Positions 749 to 51,993 of a stretch of 64,000 nucleotides of DNA are shown piece after piece. The first letter of the stretch is position 1. Every line of letters starts with the position of its first letter. The stretch is taken from the NCBI RefSeq assembly GCF_021298855.1, contig NZ_JAJTHI010000026.1, forward strand, positions 1 to 64,000, written 5' to 3'. The notes beneath the pieces are model-generated. The model had not been told where the DNA came from. It did not search any database and saw only the letters and a program-made list of their open reading frames with translations. Position numbers and translations under genes: made by a program. Source of the stretch: Gemmatimonas sp. (GTDB lineage Bacteria; Gemmatimonadota; Gemmatimonadetes; Gemmatimonadales; Gemmatimonadaceae).

Positions 749-754
749 GCCGGG

Positions 755-760
755 AAGATA
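755..760 (-). promoter_or_regulatory. -10-like hexamer TATCTT, leaderless start
   Basis: TATCTT on the minus strand is followed by 6 nt and then the ATG at 748. The same hexamer-6 nt-ATG geometry recurs at several genes in the window. Confidence 0.5.
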
Positions 761-804
761 GCCACGCCTTCGCGAAAGACTGGCCCGGTGACAGGCTCGT
801 GGCG

Positions 805-810
805 CATACT
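805..810 (+). promoter_or_regulatory. -10-like hexamer CATACT, leaderless start
   Basis: CATACT is followed by TGCGCC and then the ATG at 817. The spacing matches other putative leaderless genes here and is the reason for choosing 817 over the in-frame GTG at 799. Confidence 0.45.
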
Positions 811-816
811 TGCGCC

Positions 817-6130: not shown

Positions 6131-6136
6131 AATCTA
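6131..6136 (-). promoter_or_regulatory. -10-like hexamer TAGATT, leaderless start
   Basis: TAGATT on the minus strand is followed by GCCCCC and the ATG at 6124. Confidence 0.5.
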
Positions 6137-9597: not shown

Positions 9598-9923
9598 GAA
9601 GACTCCGGGATCGAGTGAGGGCCGGTCGGTCGCGAACCGACTGCCGCAGATTCTGCCCCCCGGTGCCGGGGGCGGCAAGGCACGGTCCGGCATTTGGTAC
9701 GAACGCTTGCCCATGTGCGCCACTTGGGTGCACTATCGGGACTATCGTCCCTCATGTATTCGTCCTGTCCCTCGCAAGGGATGAAGGCGCCTTCTTGGAA
9801 CGGACGAACCGTTCGGCCCGATCGACCACGGCGACGTTGCCGCGACCCGGTCACCCCCGAGTTCCCCCCCGCCCGGTTCGGGCGGGTTCGTGCAGCAGTA
9901 CGAAGACTTCAGGAGAGGTGCGG
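9598..9923. other. Divergent promoter region before SusC-like gene
   Basis: This 326-bp intergenic region separates the amidohydrolase (minus) and SusC-like (plus) genes. It holds the GGAG site of the former and AGGAGAGG of the latter (9911-9918). GC-rich inverted repeats are visible, for example CCCCCGGTGCCGGGGG near 9657-9672, GGGACTATCGTCCC near 9738-9751 and CCGCCCGGTTCGGGCGG near 9869-9885. Their roles are unknown; no gene is supported. Confidence 0.5.
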
Positions 9924-20357: not shown

Positions 20358-20996
20358 TCACGGCAGCCACACCGAGAGCGAGGCGACCAACGTACCCACT
20401 TCGGCGAGACGCCGCCGCAGGGTGGAGAGCGCGGCCACCAGGTGATTGTTCACCGTTCGCGGGGCACACCCCATCGCCGCCGCCACCTCGGCATGTGAGA
20501 GCCCTTCCACGCGCGAGAGCAGCAACGCCTCGCGCTGTCGGTTGGGGAGTTCGGTTACCAACACCGCGACGCGGTCCTGCAACTCCGCGCCCTCGGTGGC
20601 GGCATCGGGGAGCGTCGCGGCGCGGGGAGCGGCGGCACTGTCAGCCGCAGCGGGGTCGTCGAGCAACCGCGCACGGGTGGTGTCGTCGCGACGGATGTTG
20701 AGCGCGAGGTTTCGCACGGTACGGAAGAGCCAGGCCCGAAGGGGAATCTCCTCGTCGAGACGCTGCCGGCGATCCCAGAGGCGAACGAACGCCTCCTGAA
20801 CCACATCCTGCGCGACCGCATCGTCCTTGATGAACGAGGACGCGAAGCCGAGGAGCGGCCCGTGCAGCGCATCGAAGAGCTGGCGGAACGCGTCCTCATC
20901 GCCGGCGCGAATGGCGGCGGCCTGAGCAGGCAGTACGTCTGGGGGAAAGGAAGACATGGACGAAGAGGAAACCCGCGACATCGATTGAATGACCAT
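20358..20996 (-). CDS. ECF sigma factor (FecI-like)
   Basis: The product is a 212-residue extracytoplasmic-function sigma factor. The region 2 segment FRQLFDALHGPLLGFASSF..DVVQEAFVRLWDRR lies at about 38-76 and RAWLFRTVRNLALNIRRD at about 88-105. After an Ala/Asp-rich linker, region 4 LPNRQREALLLSRVEGLSHA and MGCAPRTVNNHLVAALSTLR provides the -35-binding helix-turn-helix. It lies 32 nt before the FecR-like gene, so they form one operon. It should direct transcription of the adjacent receptor genes when released. The start codon is uncertain: ATGs at 20996, 20981 and 20957 all lack a clear ribosome site. Confidence 0.92.
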   Translation of the reverse strand: MVIQSMSRVSSSSMSSFPPDVLPAQAAAIRAGDEDAFRQLFDALHGPLLGFASSFIKDDAVAQDVVQEAFVRLWDRRQRLDEEIPLRAWLFRTVRNLALNIRRDDTTRARLLDDPAAADSAAAPRAATLPDAATEGAELQDRVAVLVTELPNRQREALLLSRVEGLSHAEVAAAMGCAPRTVNNHLVAALSTLRRRLAEVGTLVASLSVWLP

Positions 20997-23908: not shown

Positions 23909-23914
23909 AGGCTA
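23909..23914 (-). promoter_or_regulatory. -10-like hexamer TAGCCT, leaderless start
   Basis: TAGCCT on the minus strand is followed by TGTGCC and the ATG at 23902. It faces a second such element at 23968 for the divergent gene. Confidence 0.5.
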
Positions 23915-23967: not shown

Positions 23968-23973
23968 TACCTT
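23968..23973 (+). promoter_or_regulatory. -10-like hexamer TACCTT, leaderless start
   Basis: TACCTT is followed by GCGGGG and the ATG at 23980. Confidence 0.5.
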
Positions 23974-23979
23974 GCGGGG

Positions 23980-26235
23980 ATGTGTCGCGTCCCGTTCAGC
24001 ACTCGCTCGCTGTTGCTTGCCCTTGTGGTGGGCAGCCTGTCCCTGACGCATGCCGCGCGTGCGCAGACCCCGACCGTTCCCGAGCCCACGGAAGAGGGGC
24101 GCAAGCGACTCGTGGCGCGGCGCACCACGGGGCGGCTCACCATCGACGGGCGACTCGACGAGGCAGACTGGCGGCGCGCCCCTGTGGGGGGCGATTTCGT
24201 CCAGGCACGTCCCGACTTTCTCCCCACCACGCGCTATCCCAGCGAAGTGCGGGTGCTGTACGACGACGAGAATCTCTACGTGGGCGCGTTCAACCGCGAC
24301 AGTGCGGGACTCTCGTCGCTGCGCATGCCCGACCTGCGACGCGACTTCGAACCCCCCGAAAACGACGTCTTCGGCATCACCATCGGCCCGCTGGGCGATC
24401 GCCGCACCGTGCTGCAGTTCTCCACCACGCCGCTCGGTTCACAGGCCGATGTCCAGGCCTTCGACGGCGGCGACGCGTTCAACTTCAATTGGGACGCACT
24501 GTGGCGCGTGCGCACCACGCGCAGCGACAGCGGCTGGGTGGCCGAGTTCTCCATTCCGTGGCGCTCGCTGCGGTACGCCCCCGGCCTCACGACCTGGGAC
24601 ATCAACTTCGTCCGCAACACGCGCCGCGTGGCGCAGTGGAGTGCCTGGATGCCGTACCCGCGGCAGCTGTCGTCGTGGCGCATCACGTACGGCGGCGCCC
24701 TCGACTCCATTCAGCCACCGCCCCCGCGCACCAACGTGCGCGTGCGGCCATATGTGCTGGGCACGCGCGTCACCGATCGCACGGCGCGGGCCTTCAACGG
24801 CCAGACCGGCGATGTGGGTGGCGAGATCATCTGGGCCCCCACGGCCAACAGCCTGCTGGAAGCCACCGTCAACACCGACTTCGCGCAGGCCGATGTGGAC
24901 CGCCAGGTGGTGAATCTCACCCGCTTCAATGTCTTTCTCCCCGAACGCCGGCAGTTCTTCCTCGAGAACGCCGATCTGCTGAACGCGGGAGGCCTGGGCG
25001 CCGGCACCATCGGTGGCATCGGTGGCGTGTCCGGTCGCTACTTCGTGCAACCCTTCTTCACGCGACGCATCGGCCTGGGGGAGGACGGCACCCCGCAGCC
25101 CATTGATGCCGGGGTGCGCTACGCCTACCGCACCGGGAAGACGACGGCCGGCGCCCTGGCCATGCGGCAGGCGGCCCTGGGCTCACAGGGCGCGGCCACC
25201 TTCGGGGTGATGCGTGGCAGCCGCTTCTTCGGCCGCGCCACGCGCATCGGGGCCACGGCAGCGCTGCGCGATGGGGACGCCCTCGAGGCGGATCTCGACG
25301 TGGTATCGCGACGCAACGTGGTCGTGGCCATGGATGCGCTCACGCGCATCGGGGAACTCGTGCAGTTCACGGGCATGGTGTCGGCGTCGAACGAAAATGG
25401 GCGCACGGGGTTTGCGGGAACGTACGGCATCACCCGCAACACCAACACCAGTCTTGCCGGCATTCTTGGTGCCGTGGTCACCCGCGACTACAACCCGCAG
25501 ATGGGTTTCGTCTCGCGCCCCGACGTGGTCATGACCAATCCGTTTGCCACCTGGACGATGCAGCCGGCGTGGCTCCCCTCGCGGGTGGTGTGGCTGCGGC
25601 ATGGCCCCAATGGCATCGCCTTCAACGACCCGCAATCGGGCGCGCTGCAGGAGTCCAATCTCACCTACTCGGGTGAAGTGCTCTTTCGCAACGGCGCCAC
25701 GATCACGCCATCCATCGAGCACAACATGCAGCGCCCCACGGTGGCGGTGCCGCTCTTTCCCAACGTGCAGATCGCTCCCGGATCGTACGGCTACCTGCGC
25801 GCGGGGCTCAGCGCGCGCAGCGACCAGAGCGCCCCCTTGGCCGCCACGCTCACGGCATCAACGGGCGCCTTCTTCGATGGCGCGCTCAACCGCGTTGAAG
25901 TGGTGGGCCGCTGGTCTCCCAACCCGTACGTCTCGCTGCGCGGCAGTTACGAGATCAACCGGTTGCGCAGCCTCGGCACGCGGGACTCGTCGTTCACCAC
26001 GCACCTCGCAGGACCGGAGCTGCGCGTGTTCCTCAATCCGCGCGTGCAGTGGAGTGCGTTCTACCAGTACAACACGGCCGCCGAGCGCGCGTCGCTCAAC
26101 GCCCGCTTCAGCTGGGAGTTTCTCCCGCTCTCGTTCCTGTACGTGGTCTACAACGACCGGCAGGCCGTGCAGGGTGGCAATACCCCCCTGGCGCGCTCCC
26201 TCATCGTGAAGCTGTCGTGGCTGGGACAGCTCTGA
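23980..26235 (+). CDS. DUF5916-type outer membrane protein with CBM9-like domain
   Basis: The product is a 751-residue exported protein. The signal peptide ends near HAARAQ at about 29. A CBM9-like beta-sandwich at about 45-235 starts with RLTIDGRLDEADWRRAPV and contains SEVRVLYDDENLYVGAFNRD and WVAEFSIPWRSLRYA. From there to the end is the DUF5916 barrel-like region, beginning with LLEATVNTDFAQADVDRQVV and FLPERRQFFLENADLL, both hallmarks of the family. The function is unknown; family members are found near proteases and TonB receptors. The gene is divergent from the PqiA-like gene and 53 nt upstream of the BNR-propeller gene, probably co-transcribed. Confidence 0.85.
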   Translation: MCRVPFSTRSLLLALVVGSLSLTHAARAQTPTVPEPTEEGRKRLVARRTTGRLTIDGRLDEADWRRAPVGGDFVQARPDFLPTTRYPSEVRVLYDDENLYVGAFNRDSAGLSSLRMPDLRRDFEPPENDVFGITIGPLGDRRTVLQFSTTPLGSQADVQAFDGGDAFNFNWDALWRVRTTRSDSGWVAEFSIPWRSLRYAPGLTTWDINFVRNTRRVAQWSAWMPYPRQLSSWRITYGGALDSIQPPPPRTNVRVRPYVLGTRVTDRTARAFNGQTGDVGGEIIWAPTANSLLEATVNTDFAQADVDRQVVNLTRFNVFLPERRQFFLENADLLNAGGLGAGTIGGIGGVSGRYFVQPFFTRRIGLGEDGTPQPIDAGVRYAYRTGKTTAGALAMRQAALGSQGAATFGVMRGSRFFGRATRIGATAALRDGDALEADLDVVSRRNVVVAMDALTRIGELVQFTGMVSASNENGRTGFAGTYGITRNTNTSLAGILGAVVTRDYNPQMGFVSRPDVVMTNPFATWTMQPAWLPSRVVWLRHGPNGIAFNDPQSGALQESNLTYSGEVLFRNGATITPSIEHNMQRPTVAVPLFPNVQIAPGSYGYLRAGLSARSDQSAPLAATLTASTGAFFDGALNRVEVVGRWSPNPYVSLRGSYEINRLRSLGTRDSSFTTHLAGPELRVFLNPRVQWSAFYQYNTAAERASLNARFSWEFLPLSFLYVVYNDRQAVQGGNTPLARSLIVKLSWLGQL

Positions 26236-32867: not shown

Positions 32868-32873
32868 AAGCTA
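32868..32873 (-). promoter_or_regulatory. -10-like hexamer TAGCTT, internal leaderless start
   Basis: TAGCTT on the minus strand is followed by CGCGGC and the ATG at 32861. Its TAG is also the stop codon of the upstream esterase gene. Confidence 0.45.
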
Positions 32874-35607: not shown

Positions 35608-35967
35608 GGCGTTGAAGATGGGGGAATTGCGAAGCGATACTCAAGATACGTCAGCGGAGGATTGGGCGTTTCACGGCGGCGCGCCGCCCCCGACCACGCC
35701 CGGCGCCCCAGGCGCCGGTCGGCCCCGCAGGGTGCCGGACGGGCGGGCGCGGCACCTTTCCGCCCACGGCCATGCGATTGAGCGCGGGGACCGTACGGAT
35801 CCTCGCTCGGCCGGCCGGCGCGGCCGAGCGCAGCACGCCGGCGCTCACGCTTGGCGACGGGGACCACGTCGCAGTCCTCGTGATGTACCTCCCCCTGGTG
35901 ACACGTGCTGCGCGTCGCGGTGGTGGCGCCGCTTGTGCGAATCACGGGTCGGGTTCAGCGTTGCCCC
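35608..35967. other. Divergent intergenic region, no gene seen
   Basis: These 360 bp separate the LVIVD lipoprotein gene and the MBL-fold gene. They are very GC-rich with several short inverted repeats (for example GGCGCCCCAGGCGCC near 35700). Open frames here lack signals and are shadows. A CAGCGT hexamer lies 6 nt before the ATG at 35968. Confidence 0.45.
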
Positions 35968-37092
35968 ATGGTGAAACCGTGGGCAACACGAATCCGGCCC
36001 GTTCGCGCATCCGTCGCGGTCCTGACCGTGCTCGCACTCTCCGCCTGCCGCTGGGTGACCACTGGCTCGCCCACCGCGTTGCGTCCGGCGCCTGCCAATG
36101 CGGTGCAGGTCGTGGATGCGTGTGCGAGCGCGTGCGCCGATTCGCTCGATCTCGTGGCCATGGGCGTGGCCGGTTACCTGCTCGTGCCGTGGCAGGACAC
36201 CACCCGCCTCGTGCTCACCCCGCCCATGTTCACCAACCCCACCGTGCCGTGGCTGGTGTTGGGCGACCTGCTGTTGGGGACACGTCCCGACACGGCACAG
36301 ATCACGAGACGCCTGGCGGCCATGCCGGCGGCCGGCACCGAGCGCCTCGGCCGGGTCCGGGCGGTGCTGGTGGGGCATGGCCATTACGATCACCTGCTCG
36401 ATCTGCCGCCGCTGCTGCCACGCATGCCTCACGCGCGCGTCTACGGCAGCGAAACCGTACGCAACCTGCTGGCCCCTGTCACGTCACTTGCCGACTCGAT
36501 GCGGGTGGCGGTGGACACGCTGGCCGCGCGGCATGGGGCGCAGGCCGGGCAGTCGATTGCCGTGAGTCCGCTCATCCAGCTGCGCGCCATCACGTGGGCG
36601 CATGCCCCCAACATCGGTTCCCTCACCATCGCCCCCGGCCACCAACGCACCCCGCGCCGCACGCTTCCGCGCACCGTACACGGCTGGAAGATGGGCACCC
36701 CCTACGCGTGGGTGGTGGACGTACGGCAACGGCCGGATCCCTCCGCCGCGGTGGCCGTGCGCCTGGTGTATCACGACGCGGCAGCCGATGCCGACGTGCA
36801 ACGCCGCGCCGCCGAGGTGATGGCAACGATGCCCCCAGCCCACGTGACCGTGGTGATCATGACGGCGGCCAACTTCGATCAGGCCAACGCGTACCCCGAC
36901 GTGCTGCTGGCGCACCTCACGCCGCAGCATGTGCTGGTGGGGCATTGGGAGGACTTCTTCCGCTCCTCGAGCCGCCCCGAGCGGGTGGTGCGGGGCACCA
37001 ATGCGGAAGCCCTCGTGCGTCGCCTCACGCCGTTCGTGGACACCCGCTGGTCGGCCCCGCGGGCTGGCGCCGTGACGCGTGTGCGCTGGTAG
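35968..37092 (+). CDS. MBL-fold metallo-hydrolase lipoprotein
   Basis: The product is a 374-residue lipoprotein (lipobox LALSAC, Cys27) with a metallo-beta-lactamase fold. The metal motif HGHYDH at 137-142 is intact, and a second His is likely in VGHWEDFF near the end. Between them are ITWAHAPNIGSLTIAPGHQR and WVVDVRQRPDPSAAVAVRLV. Related lipoproteins are annotated only as MBL-fold hydrolases; the substrate is unknown. ATG 35968 is chosen because it starts the signal peptide; the open frame begins earlier. It converges on the minus-strand gene that ends at 37108. Confidence 0.8.
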   Translation: MVKPWATRIRPVRASVAVLTVLALSACRWVTTGSPTALRPAPANAVQVVDACASACADSLDLVAMGVAGYLLVPWQDTTRLVLTPPMFTNPTVPWLVLGDLLLGTRPDTAQITRRLAAMPAAGTERLGRVRAVLVGHGHYDHLLDLPPLLPRMPHARVYGSETVRNLLAPVTSLADSMRVAVDTLAARHGAQAGQSIAVSPLIQLRAITWAHAPNIGSLTIAPGHQRTPRRTLPRTVHGWKMGTPYAWVVDVRQRPDPSAAVAVRLVYHDAAADADVQRRAAEVMATMPPAHVTVVIMTAANFDQANAYPDVLLAHLTPQHVLVGHWEDFFRSSSRPERVVRGTNAEALVRRLTPFVDTRWSAPRAGAVTRVRW

Positions 37093-38073: not shown

Positions 38074-38188
38074 GGCTCCATATTGCCGAGGCCCGACGTT
38101 CGGCGGCAGTGGGCCGTTCCGCTCGCTGCGTGGCAGACGGCGGCATGGCTGGCTATCGCGCGTTCCGCCGGCGCGGCATGTTCTCCCC

Positions 38189-39478
38189 ATGCTGCATCGT
38201 CTCCCATCGCCCGCCGCTTCCCAGCGTGGCCGCCGCCTCCTGATGCGGGTCATCACCGCGGCTGGCGTGGCGCTCGCGCACGCGCTGCCCGCGCAGCCGG
38301 CGCCCAACGTAACGGCGTTCACCGGCGCCACCCTCATTGACGGCACCGGACGCGCCCCGGTACCCAACGCCACCCTGCTGGTGCGCGAGGGGAAGGTGCT
38401 GGCCGCCGGTGCGGGCGGGAGCATCACCGTGCCCGCCGGCGCCACCCGGGTCCCGCTCGATGGCACGGTCATCATTCCGGGACTCATCAATGGGCACGGG
38501 CATGCCTCCACCGTGGCCAATCTGGCCACCTACGCCGCGTACGGGGTGACCACGGTGTACTCCCTCGGCGACGAGGGCCCCGAGGTGTTCGGCGCGCGCG
38601 ACGCGCAGCGGCGTGCCCCACCGGCACATGCCCGGGTGTACCTGGCGGGCCCGGTGCTTGCACCGGCGACTCCCGACGAGGCGCGCGCGCAGGTGAGGGC
38701 GGCGGTGGCCCGCGGCGTGGACATCATCAAGATTCGCGTGGACGACAACCTGGGCACCGCGCCGAAGATGCCCCCCGAGGTGTACCGCGCGGTGATCGCG
38801 GAAGCGCACGCGCGTGGGCAGCGGGTGGCGGTGCACCTCTACTATCTCGACGACGCCCGCGCCCTGCTGGCGGCCGGAGCGGATTACCTCGCGCACAGCG
38901 TGCGGGACCAGCCGGTGGATGCCGCCTTCGTGGAATCGCTGCGGCGAAGTGGCGTGTGCTATTCCCCGACGCTCATGCGCGAGGTCTCCACCTTCGTGTA
39001 CGACACGGTGCCGGCGTTCTTCGCCGATTCGCAGTTCCGCGCGCACGCCAATCGCGCCTGGATGGCCACGGTCACCGACTCGGCCCGCATGGCCGCCACG
39101 CGGCGCAGCGTGAGCGCACAGCGCTACAAGGCGCAATTGCCGGTGGCCATGCGGAATCTGGCCACGCTGGTGGCGGCCGGCGTGCCCATTGCGATGGGCA
39201 CGGATACGGGGCCGGTCGGACGCTTCCAGGGATTCTTCGAGTGGATGGAGATGGAGATGATGGTGGACGCGGGACTCACGCCGGCAGCCGTGCTCACCAG
39301 CGCCACGCGCGACGCGGCGCGCTGCCTGCGCATCGACCACGAAGTGGGCACCCTCGAGGCGGGAAAGCAGGCCGATTTCGTGGTGCTGCACGCGTCACCG
39401 ATCGAGGACATCCGCAACATCCGTCGCCAGCATTCGGTGTGGATTGGCGGCGCGCGCGTGAATACGGCGCCGCGCTGA
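38189..39478 (+). CDS. Imidazolonepropionase-like amidohydrolase, exported
   Basis: The product is a 429-residue amidohydrolase-superfamily enzyme with a probable signal peptide (RRLLMRVITAAGVALAHALP). The metal motif HGH lies in GLINGHGHASTVANL, and VDIIKIRVDD, GQRVAVHLYYLDDAR and ADYLAHSVRD carry the later metal ligands. The final acidic ligand is in GVPIAMGTDTGPVGR. LEAGKQADFVVLHASPIEDI closes the small beta-sandwich domain. The substrate is unknown; relatives hydrolyse dipeptides or cyclic amides in the periplasm. CATGTT lies 6 nt before the ATG at 38189; the in-frame upstream extension is not supported. Confidence 0.83.
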   Translation: MLHRLPSPAASQRGRRLLMRVITAAGVALAHALPAQPAPNVTAFTGATLIDGTGRAPVPNATLLVREGKVLAAGAGGSITVPAGATRVPLDGTVIIPGLINGHGHASTVANLATYAAYGVTTVYSLGDEGPEVFGARDAQRRAPPAHARVYLAGPVLAPATPDEARAQVRAAVARGVDIIKIRVDDNLGTAPKMPPEVYRAVIAEAHARGQRVAVHLYYLDDARALLAAGADYLAHSVRDQPVDAAFVESLRRSGVCYSPTLMREVSTFVYDTVPAFFADSQFRAHANRAWMATVTDSARMAATRRSVSAQRYKAQLPVAMRNLATLVAAGVPIAMGTDTGPVGRFQGFFEWMEMEMMVDAGLTPAAVLTSATRDAARCLRIDHEVGTLEAGKQADFVVLHASPIEDIRNIRRQHSVWIGGARVNTAPR

Positions 39479-41170: not shown

Positions 41171-41227
41171 ACGCACCGGAGTCGCGAGGGTTGGCCGTCC
41201 TTGACGAGGCAATCCCGATTGTTTTAG

Positions 41228-41256
41228 TTGCAATGACATTTGTTGAAACTTATTCT
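41228..41256 (+). promoter_or_regulatory. Sigma70-type promoter of FecA-like gene
   Basis: TTGCAA (41228-41233) and TATTCT (41251-41256) are separated by 17 bp in an unusually AT-rich stretch. The predicted start site is 41263-41265, at or within 2 nt of the ATG, so the transcript is likely leaderless. Confidence 0.65.
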
Positions 41257-41258
41257 CA
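41244..41258 (+). promoter_or_regulatory. Fur-box-like operator
   Basis: TGAAACTTATTCTCA matches the 7-1-7 Fur consensus TGATAATnATTATCA at 11 or 12 of 14 informative positions. It overlaps the -10 element of the promoter of the receptor gene, where bound Fur would block transcription under iron sufficiency. Confidence 0.6.
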
Positions 41259-41264
41259 TCTAAG

Positions 41265-43538
41265 ATGGACCTCGTTCGTTTCTCCACGCTTCGTGTCGGC
41301 ACCGGCCTCGCGCTGATCGGTTTGCTCCTGACGCTCCCGCAGGCCCTGCGTGCCCAGGCGCAAGGCACCACGCCCCGCATTGGCCGCGACACCGTCCAGC
41401 TCCCGGGCGTTTCGGTGGTGGGCGCTCCCGACCGGCTCTCCCGCATCCCCGGCTCGGTGGACCGGGTGGACGCGCGGCAGCTCAAGGCCAGCCGCGTGTT
41501 CACCACCAACGAGGCGCTGCGCAAGGTTGCCGGCCTGGTGGTGCGCGACGAAGAAGGGTTCGGGCTCCGCCCCAACATCGGCGTGCGCGGACTCAACCCC
41601 ACCCGCTCCACCAAGGTCCTGCTTCTCGAAGACGGTATTCCGTTCACCGTCGCTCCCTACGGCGACAACGCCGCCTATTACCACCCACCGATCGAGCGCA
41701 TGGAGTCGATCGAGGTGTTGAAGGGCGCCGGGCAGATTCTGTACGGCCCGCAGACCGTGGGGGGCGTCATCAACTATCTCACGCCGTCCATTCCGCGCAC
41801 GCCGGGCGCCGGGCTCTCCATTGCCGGTGGCTCGCGCGCCTTCACGAACGTGCACGCCAGGGCGGGGGGCACCTTCGGCGAGGCCGGCGGAACCGGTGTC
41901 TTTGCCGACTACATCCGCCGCAGCGGCGACGGGGCGCGCGAAAACACCTCCTCCGCGGTGGACGACGCATCGTTCAAGCTGCTCGTGCCGCTCAGCCGCA
42001 CCCAGCAGCTCACCGTGCGCGGCAATGCCTATCGGGAGCAGTCCACCGTCACGTACTCGGGACTCACCGAAGCGGAGTACGCAGCGGATGCGCGCCAGAA
42101 TCCCTTCGTGAACGACGGGTTCGACATTGCGCGGGTGGGTGGCGCCATCTCGCACCGCGTGGGGCGCTCGGAGCGGCGCAACCTCACCACGACGTTGTAC
42201 GGGTATCGCATCAACCGGGACTGGTGGCGACAGAGCTCCAACTCCGCGCAGCGTCCCAACGATCGCAACGATCCCACCTGCGGCGGGATGACGAACCTCG
42301 TCACCACCTGCGGCAACGAAGGGCGCCTGCGCGAGTATGTGGTGGTGGGGATCGAGCCACGCGCCACCTGGCAGTGGGTGCGTGCGGCGGCGATCATCGA
42401 GCTCGATGCCGGCGCGCGCGCCCACCATGAGACGCAGGAACGGCAGCAGGTCAACGCCTCCACGCCACGCGGGCGCACGGTGGGGCTCAGCGGCAACGTG
42501 AATGCCGGCCTGGTGGAGGACAACCGACGCACCACCGACGCCTTCGCCTCGTATGTGCAGGCCCGCGTGGCCACGGGCCGCTTCACCCTGAGCGGCGGGC
42601 TGCGCGGTGAAGCGCTGCGGCTGACGCGCATCAACCGGCGTCCCACGACCGCGACCCCCGATGGCGTGCAGGGCGCGACCACCATGCAGACGCTCATTCC
42701 GGGCGCCGGGGCCACCCTGCAGCTGCGTGAAGGACTCACGGCCTTTGCCGGCATTCACCGCGGCTTCGCACCGCCGCGTCCGGAAGACATCATCAGTAAC
42801 AGCACCGGTGGTGTCGTGGAGATCGACGCGGAACTCAGCTGGAACAGCGAAGTGGGGCTGCGCTGGCTTCCCGTCCGTCCGCTGCGCGTGGAAGCCACGG
42901 TGTTCAATCTCGACTTCAGCAACCAGATCGTGCCGGCGAGCGTGGCCGGTGGCACCGGCGCCACGCTCACCAGCGCCGGCCGCACGCTGCATCGCGGGGC
43001 CGAGCTGTCGTTGCGCGCCGAGCCGGCACGTACCGTGGCCGGCATAGGTCTGTTCACGGAAGTGGCCGCGGCATGGACGCCCGTGGCCCGTTTCGAAGGC
43101 CGCCGCTTCGCGTACCTCGGCGTCGGCGGCGGCGATGTGGCAGGCAAGGTGTACGCCGAACAGAACGCCGGCGGTTCGCGCACACGGGTTTCGGTGACGG
43201 GCAACCGCCTCCCCTACGCCCCGGAGTACACGCTCACCACCACGGTGGGCGCGCGCCATCACTCGGGAAGCGAACTGCGGGTCGAGGCGGTGGCGATCAG
43301 TGAACAGTTCGGCGATGCCGCCAACACCCGCGTGCTGGTGGCCGATGGGCAGCAGGGGCCGCTGGCGGGCAACGTGCTCTGGAACGTCACCGCCAATGTG
43401 CCGGTGCCGAACACGGCGCTGTCAGCGTGGGTGGCGGTGAAGAACCTCACCGATCGCACGGTGGTGGTGGACCGTACGCGCGGGTTGCTCCCCGGGCTGC
43501 CGCGCCTGGTGCAGCTGGGGATGGCGTACCGGCTGTAA
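41265..43538 (+). CDS. FecA-like TonB-dependent siderophore receptor
   Basis: The product is a 757-residue outer-membrane receptor. A signal peptide (to about residue 31, ALRAQA) is followed directly by the plug: GVSVVGAPDRLSRIPGSVDR, NEALRKVAGLVVRDEEGFGL, NIGVRGLNPTRSTKVLLLED, ERMESIEVLKGAGQILYGPQ and VGGVINYLTP. These segments resemble the Fe(III)-dicitrate receptor FecA, but there is no N-terminal STN signalling domain. The barrel ends with LVQLGMAYRL. An iron-chelate substrate is inferred from the plug similarity and from the Fur-box-like site in the promoter. There is no Shine-Dalgarno sequence and the promoter places transcription start at the ATG. No siderophore synthesis or ABC importer genes are in the window. 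Confidence 0.9.
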   Translation: MDLVRFSTLRVGTGLALIGLLLTLPQALRAQAQGTTPRIGRDTVQLPGVSVVGAPDRLSRIPGSVDRVDARQLKASRVFTTNEALRKVAGLVVRDEEGFGLRPNIGVRGLNPTRSTKVLLLEDGIPFTVAPYGDNAAYYHPPIERMESIEVLKGAGQILYGPQTVGGVINYLTPSIPRTPGAGLSIAGGSRAFTNVHARAGGTFGEAGGTGVFADYIRRSGDGARENTSSAVDDASFKLLVPLSRTQQLTVRGNAYREQSTVTYSGLTEAEYAADARQNPFVNDGFDIARVGGAISHRVGRSERRNLTTTLYGYRINRDWWRQSSNSAQRPNDRNDPTCGGMTNLVTTCGNEGRLREYVVVGIEPRATWQWVRAAAIIELDAGARAHHETQERQQVNASTPRGRTVGLSGNVNAGLVEDNRRTTDAFASYVQARVATGRFTLSGGLRGEALRLTRINRRPTTATPDGVQGATTMQTLIPGAGATLQLREGLTAFAGIHRGFAPPRPEDIISNSTGGVVEIDAELSWNSEVGLRWLPVRPLRVEATVFNLDFSNQIVPASVAGGTGATLTSAGRTLHRGAELSLRAEPARTVAGIGLFTEVAAAWTPVARFEGRRFAYLGVGGGDVAGKVYAEQNAGGSRTRVSVTGNRLPYAPEYTLTTTVGARHHSGSELRVEAVAISEQFGDAANTRVLVADGQQGPLAGNVLWNVTANVPVPNTALSAWVAVKNLTDRTVVVDRTRGLLPGLPRLVQLGMAYRL

Positions 43539-51516: not shown

Positions 51517-51522
51517 TAGACT
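51517..51522 (+). promoter_or_regulatory. -10-like hexamer TAGACT, leaderless gspG
   Basis: TAGACT is followed by TTCCGC and the ATG at 51529. This is the only promoter-like element I see immediately before the ten-gene secretion operon. The rest of the 300-bp gap 51229-51528 holds the palindromes and no gene. Confidence 0.5.
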
Positions 51523-51528
51523 TTCCGC

Positions 51529-51993
51529 ATGAGGCCGACTTTCCTGAACCACCCCCGCCCCCGTCCTGGCGCCGCTGGTCGGGCGGCCTTCACGCTCATC
51601 GAGATTCTCGTCGTGATTGCCGTCATCGCCATTCTGGCGTCGCTGGTGGCGCCGAGCGTCTTCCAGCACGTGGGAACGGCGCGCTCCACGACCGCGCGCT
51701 CCCAGCTCGAGATGCTCGCGACCGCGCTCGACGCCTATCGCCTCGACCTGGGCCGGTACCCAACCACCGAGCAGGGGCTCGCGGCACTCGTCAGCGCACC
51801 CGCGGGGGATCCGACGACCACGTGGCGGGGCCCCTACCTGCGGCGAGCCGTCCCCGTTGATCCGTGGGGCGCGCCGTACGTGTATCTCGCACCCGGGACC
51901 AGCAACCCCGACGGGTTCGACCTGCTGTCATACGGCGCCGACCGCCGCCCGGGTGGCGACGGCGAGAACGCCGACATCCTCGGCTGGCAGTAG
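51529..51993 (+). CDS. gspG: Type II secretion major pseudopilin GspG
   Basis: The product is a 154-residue major pseudopilin that forms the periplasmic pseudopilus. The prepilin motif is AFTLIEILVVIAVIAILASL, with the conserved Glu25 at mature position 5; residue -1 is Ala20 where Gly is usual. The C-terminal part has LGRYPTTEQGLAALV, WRGPYLRR, PVDPWGAPYVYLAPG and FDLLSYGADRRPGGDGENAD, where the last loop binds calcium in GspG proteins. It is the first gene of the operon and has a leaderless-type start. The peptidase GspO is not in the window. Confidence 0.95.
   Translation: MRPTFLNHPRPRPGAAGRAAFTLIEILVVIAVIAILASLVAPSVFQHVGTARSTTARSQLEMLATALDAYRLDLGRYPTTEQGLAALVSAPAGDPTTTWRGPYLRRAVPVDPWGAPYVYLAPGTSNPDGFDLLSYGADRRPGGDGENADILGWQ

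Follow-up and report, generated by a model that had tools for sequence, protein, structure and literature searches.

In Gemmatimonas sp., TANNNT hexamers lying 5-8 bases, most often 6, before start codons are very probably -10 elements of sigma-70-type promoters that give rise to leaderless mRNAs. The DNA analyzed, here called the window, is a 64-kb stretch (positions 1-64,000 of contig C30) of a source genome of 4.085 Mb in 91 contigs. A sequence-only reading had proposed nine sites in it, six TANNNT-N6-ATG and three CANNNT-N6-ATG, as a sign of widespread leaderless genes. All nine hexamers are exact at a gap of 6 (the gap being the number of bases between hexamer and start codon), and a Shine-Dalgarno sequence at the normal distance is found at none of them, as had been claimed. 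The four genes named for their strong Shine-Dalgarno sequences (9924, 20325, 49691, and 51228) do carry AGGAG, GGAGG, GGAG, and GGAGG, respectively, at -13 to -9, and the 3' tail of the host 16S rRNA has the canonical anti-Shine-Dalgarno sequence, CCTCCTTTC. Because the -10 box is only 5-8 bases from the ATG, the mRNA should begin at the start codon with no ribosome-binding leader. From this spacing we infer that RNA polymerase would start at the A of the ATG, or within one or two bases of it, and that the leaderless mRNAs would be read via the 5'-AUG pathway rather than through Shine-Dalgarno pairing. This would be a second initiation mode used by about one tenth of the genes, chiefly those that come first in their transcription units, beside the ordinary Shine-Dalgarno genes.

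The sequence-only reading had predicted a genome-wide peak of TANNNT at this spacing in genes without a Shine-Dalgarno sequence. We scanned 862 kb of the source genome (40 stretches plus the window), in which a self-trained dicodon model blind to upstream sequence called 713 genes; the gene starts come from this home-made, composition-only caller, though it is motif-blind. The predicted peak is present: TANNNT counts before ATG starts were 12 at gap 5, 25 at gap 6, and 8 each at gaps 7 and 8, compared with a background mean of ∼1.6 for each gap farther upstream, and the excess at gap 6 has a P of ∼1e-21. At gaps 11-19 before ATG there was 1 match in total among 473 genes, as if very-short-leader promoters were avoided. 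TANNNT at gaps 5-8 precedes 53 of 473 ATG starts vs 2 of 236 GTG or TTG starts (P 5e-8), and the latter show no peak. A Shine-Dalgarno sequence accompanies 3 of 52 motif genes vs 129 of 421 others (P 5e-5) in the 862-kb sample. The window itself contains 1619 ATGs, counting both strands, and TANNNT stands at gap 6 before only six of them, each a plausible gene start. Pattern counts over the whole genome gave 272 at gap 6 vs 110 at the same-phase gap 12. When the start was allowed to shift by up to 45 bases, the motif stood at gaps 5-8 in 63 of 709 genes and at gaps 12-15 in none. The excess corresponds to 8% of genes overall and to 12% of first genes, which is a floor because exact TANNNT alone was counted. 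The signal does extend beyond the window, and "widespread" here stands for a minority of ∼8-12% of genes.

We aligned 91 promoters from three genomes. Position 5 of the -10 element is T in 65% of the source-genome promoters (34/52 vs 19/60 in the background) and is enriched also in the relatives G003 and G001; the consensus is TAnnTT rather than TANNNT. At a 17-bp spacer, the first -35 base is T in 35% vs 19% (p 1.3e-4, uncorrected, with ∼33 positions scanned), a weak signal, and full TTGACA -35 boxes did not rise above background. The -10 assignment of the earlier reading is supported for TANNNT by the peak, by conservation in congeners (see below), and by this weak -35 base. It is not supported for CANNNT as a general variant, whose 7 matches at gap 6 are no enrichment over a background of 5.3; CANNTT shows a weak excess there (3 vs 0.66).

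The weak -35 signal would also fit a hexamer that serves as a translation-initiation element of leadered mRNAs (AT-rich and unstructured, or an S1-binding site) and is no promoter at all; AT-rich signals before non-Shine-Dalgarno starts have been discussed as possible S1 sites (PMC5397173). We consider this unlikely. The motif is specifically T-A-n-n-T-T rather than AT richness at large, and no peak comparable to that of TANNNT was found for the rearranged motifs AT...T and TT...A in the 862-kb sample. Moreover, the motif is concentrated in genes that come first or have a divergent neighbour, it is weak or rare in tight operons, and the -35 T stands at a promoter spacer.

The host encodes two sigma-70-family proteins of 286 and 295 aa with region 2.4 and 4.2 motifs, and we infer that one of the two is the primary sigma factor. 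Sigma-70-family matches lie at C58:69386-69853 and C31:2948-3412 of the source genome, with WWIRQAIL in region 2.4; we take the short sigma factors bearing this sequence to resemble Bacteroidota RpoD. Within the window, 20682-20879 (-) encodes a region-2 domain of a sigma factor; the genome has 25 such matches, this one included, and the protein is probably an ECF sigma factor.

Conservation was examined in relatives; 30 genomes belong to the host's genus. Over all orthologous pairs, the motif was found in orthologues of motif genes vs other genes in 5/6 vs 0/42 cases in G020, 5/8 vs 3/49 in G003, and 3/5 vs 1/53 in G001, and the control gaps 12-15 showed no such conservation in these three genomes. 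In congeners, the motif of genes 6124, 23902, 23980, and 748 is still found 6 bases ahead of the ATG, amid flanks that vary. TATCTT (755-760, minus strand) is exact at gap 6 before the predicted leaderless gene 748-308, an ORF of 146 aa on the minus strand (308-748) that has no Pfam match and is divergent from gene 817; TATCTT-6-ATG is unchanged in G020 and G019 despite differing flanks. TAGATT (6131-6136, minus strand, gap 6) precedes gene 6124-3746, a YfhO-like membrane protein by Pfam; the orthologues have TAGATT (G020, G005) or TAAATT (G003), and in G005 the start ATG is displaced and the motif is displaced along with it. Two further elements serve a divergent pair. TAGCCT (23909-23914, minus strand, gap 6) belongs to gene 23902-23402 (PqiA), whose orthologues show TAGCCT (G020), TACCCT (G005), TAACGT (G001), and CCCATT (G003) at gap 6. 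TACCTT (23968-23973, plus strand, gap 6) belongs to gene 23980-26235, a DUF5916 protein whose best named record is Gemmatimonas sp. UBA2094 (83%). Its orthologues have TAGCTT (G020) or TACCTT (G003, G005), and in G025 and G015 TAGTCT-6-ATG is found, the start Met having shifted together with the motif. As a contrast, AGGAG at 9911-9915 (+), at -13 of the TonB-receptor gene 9924, is retained as GGAG or AGGAG in G020, G003, and G005.

The displaced starts bear on the possibility that the hexamers are real -10 elements but direct transcription from a point a few bases into the ORF, the true start being a downstream ATG or GTG behind a short leader. Some ORFs do have more in-frame starts, and the caller preferred 24013 and 51613. 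We regard this as quite improbable, given that motif and ATG keep their spacing even where the N-terminus differs (gene 6124 in G005; gene 23980 in G025 and G015) and that ATG is much preferred to GTG at the motif spacing. The earlier suggestion that the motif fixes start codons proved right for 23980: the caller chose 24013, and motif and ATG are conserved in three relatives. Promoters of leaderless mRNAs, as preferred here, would supply a direct rule for start-codon correction in the Gemmatimonas lineage.

The other sites in the window are less informative. TAGACT (51517-51522, plus strand) is exact at gap 6 before gene 51529-51993 (T2SS protein G), whose upstream neighbour, 51228, is divergent; as a footprint it is weak because it is kept only in a near-identical region of G020. 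Among the weak CANNNT candidates, all at gap 6 on the plus strand, CATACT (805-810; gene 817-2016, amidase) is identical in G020, has gap 5 in G019, and is missing from most other orthologues; CATGTT (38177-38182; gene 38189-39478, amidohydrolase) is kept in G020, and CAGCGT (35956-35961; gene 35968-37092, beta-lactamase-fold) in G020 only. Being retained mainly in the nearest relative, the 51529 site and the CANNNT sites say little. A separate stretch, 41200-41265 (+), is AT-rich, which is unusual at 69% GC, and carries a TATTCT separated by 8 bases from the ATG at 41265; this hexamer is not conserved, since its TA is CA in G020. TAGCTT (32868-32873, minus strand, gap 6) is an ambiguous candidate for gene 32861-31821 (alpha/beta hydrolase), present in G020 and absent in G003, and it proves little because its TAG is at the same time the stop of the ORF upstream, which ends at 32871.

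It is highly improbable that the peak as a whole was produced by stop codons (TAG, TAA) lying shortly upstream of starts, or by a caller that settles on whichever ATG comes first behind an in-frame stop. In favour of this explanation, TAG is the commonest form, gap 6 is in frame, and 32861 is a case of this kind. Against it, the non-stop forms TA[CT]NNT show a peak as well, with 11 matches at gap 6; TANNNT shows no peak at the in-frame gaps 3, 9, and 12 in the 862-kb sample; the same caller yields no peak in two control genomes; and 124 genes with a divergent neighbour, in which an upstream stop codon cannot be the cause, have 11 matches at gap 6 but none at gaps 11-15. Largely refuted for the whole set, this explanation may apply to single tight-operon sites. 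Counting against leaderless expression are that some tight-operon sites take their TAG from an upstream stop and that the peak is weaker in G001, next to the weak -35 signal and the home-made caller behind the gene starts.

With the same pipeline, the gap-6 peak was 11 vs 0.96 in G003 and 8 vs 1.2 in G001. The negative controls, G058 (another family of the class; GC 0.70) and G030 (outside the class; GC 0.63), gave no gene-anchored TANNNT peak, which indicates that the trait is lineage-restricted and not phylum-wide. Whole-genome ratios of gap-6 to gap-12 counts in 61 genomes were considered for placing the trait on a tree and rejected as too noisy (G058 reached 1.42 with no gene-anchored peak). 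The Tex gene was likewise of little use as a phylum-wide marker, near-full-length matches being confined to 9 of 61 Gemmatimonadota genomes scattered across families. Tentatively, leaderless expression may have arisen or expanded in one Gemmatimonadota branch, independently of Actinobacteria and Deinococcota; it would then rely on a Bacteroidota-like sigma factor, TAnnTT as the -10, and nearly exclusive AUG starts, with sister families of the phylum at similar GC lacking it. Related families with and without the trait offer a way to study the genomic requirements for gaining or losing leaderless expression.

No publication on Gemmatimonas that dealt with leaderless genes or mapped start sites came up in our literature search, and the present results extend leaderless expression to a phylum for which we found no earlier report. 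Most likely, this is a known expression mode in such a lineage, with small differences (TAnnTT, ATG only, lineage restriction). Bacteroidota promoters have a -7 TAnnTTTG and a -33 TTTG. The host resembles them in the TAnnTT core and in a 286-aa sigma factor with WWIRQAILQ. It differs in lacking the TG extension (C follows TAnnTT in the aligned promoters) and a TTTG box, for which no peak was found, and in having a canonical anti-Shine-Dalgarno tail and clear Shine-Dalgarno genes. Zheng et al. (2011, PMC3160421) took TANNNT at about -12 as the hallmark of leaderless genes and reported heavy use of it in Actinobacteria and Deinococcus-Thermus; their "Other Bacteria" group (8/20 genomes) may include a Gemmatimonas. 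The element has been tested in Deinococcus (Zhong et al., 2025, PMC12340547). Like the TA-led genes of those two groups, the Gemmatimonas genes have TANNNT ∼12 bp before the start and no Shine-Dalgarno sequence, and they occur beside Shine-Dalgarno genes at high GC. The signature is shared as regards TANNNT and spacing, as the sequence-only reading had stated, but a full equation does not hold: position 5 is T in 65% of the Gemmatimonas -10 elements, whereas the middle bases in Actinobacteria and Deinococcus are reported to be little informative. The share of genes also differs, at ∼8-12% in Gemmatimonas vs ∼40% in Deinococcus-Thermus and 20% in Actinobacteria in Zheng et al. (2011), and, unlike in those groups, TA-led starts in Gemmatimonas are almost exclusively ATG.
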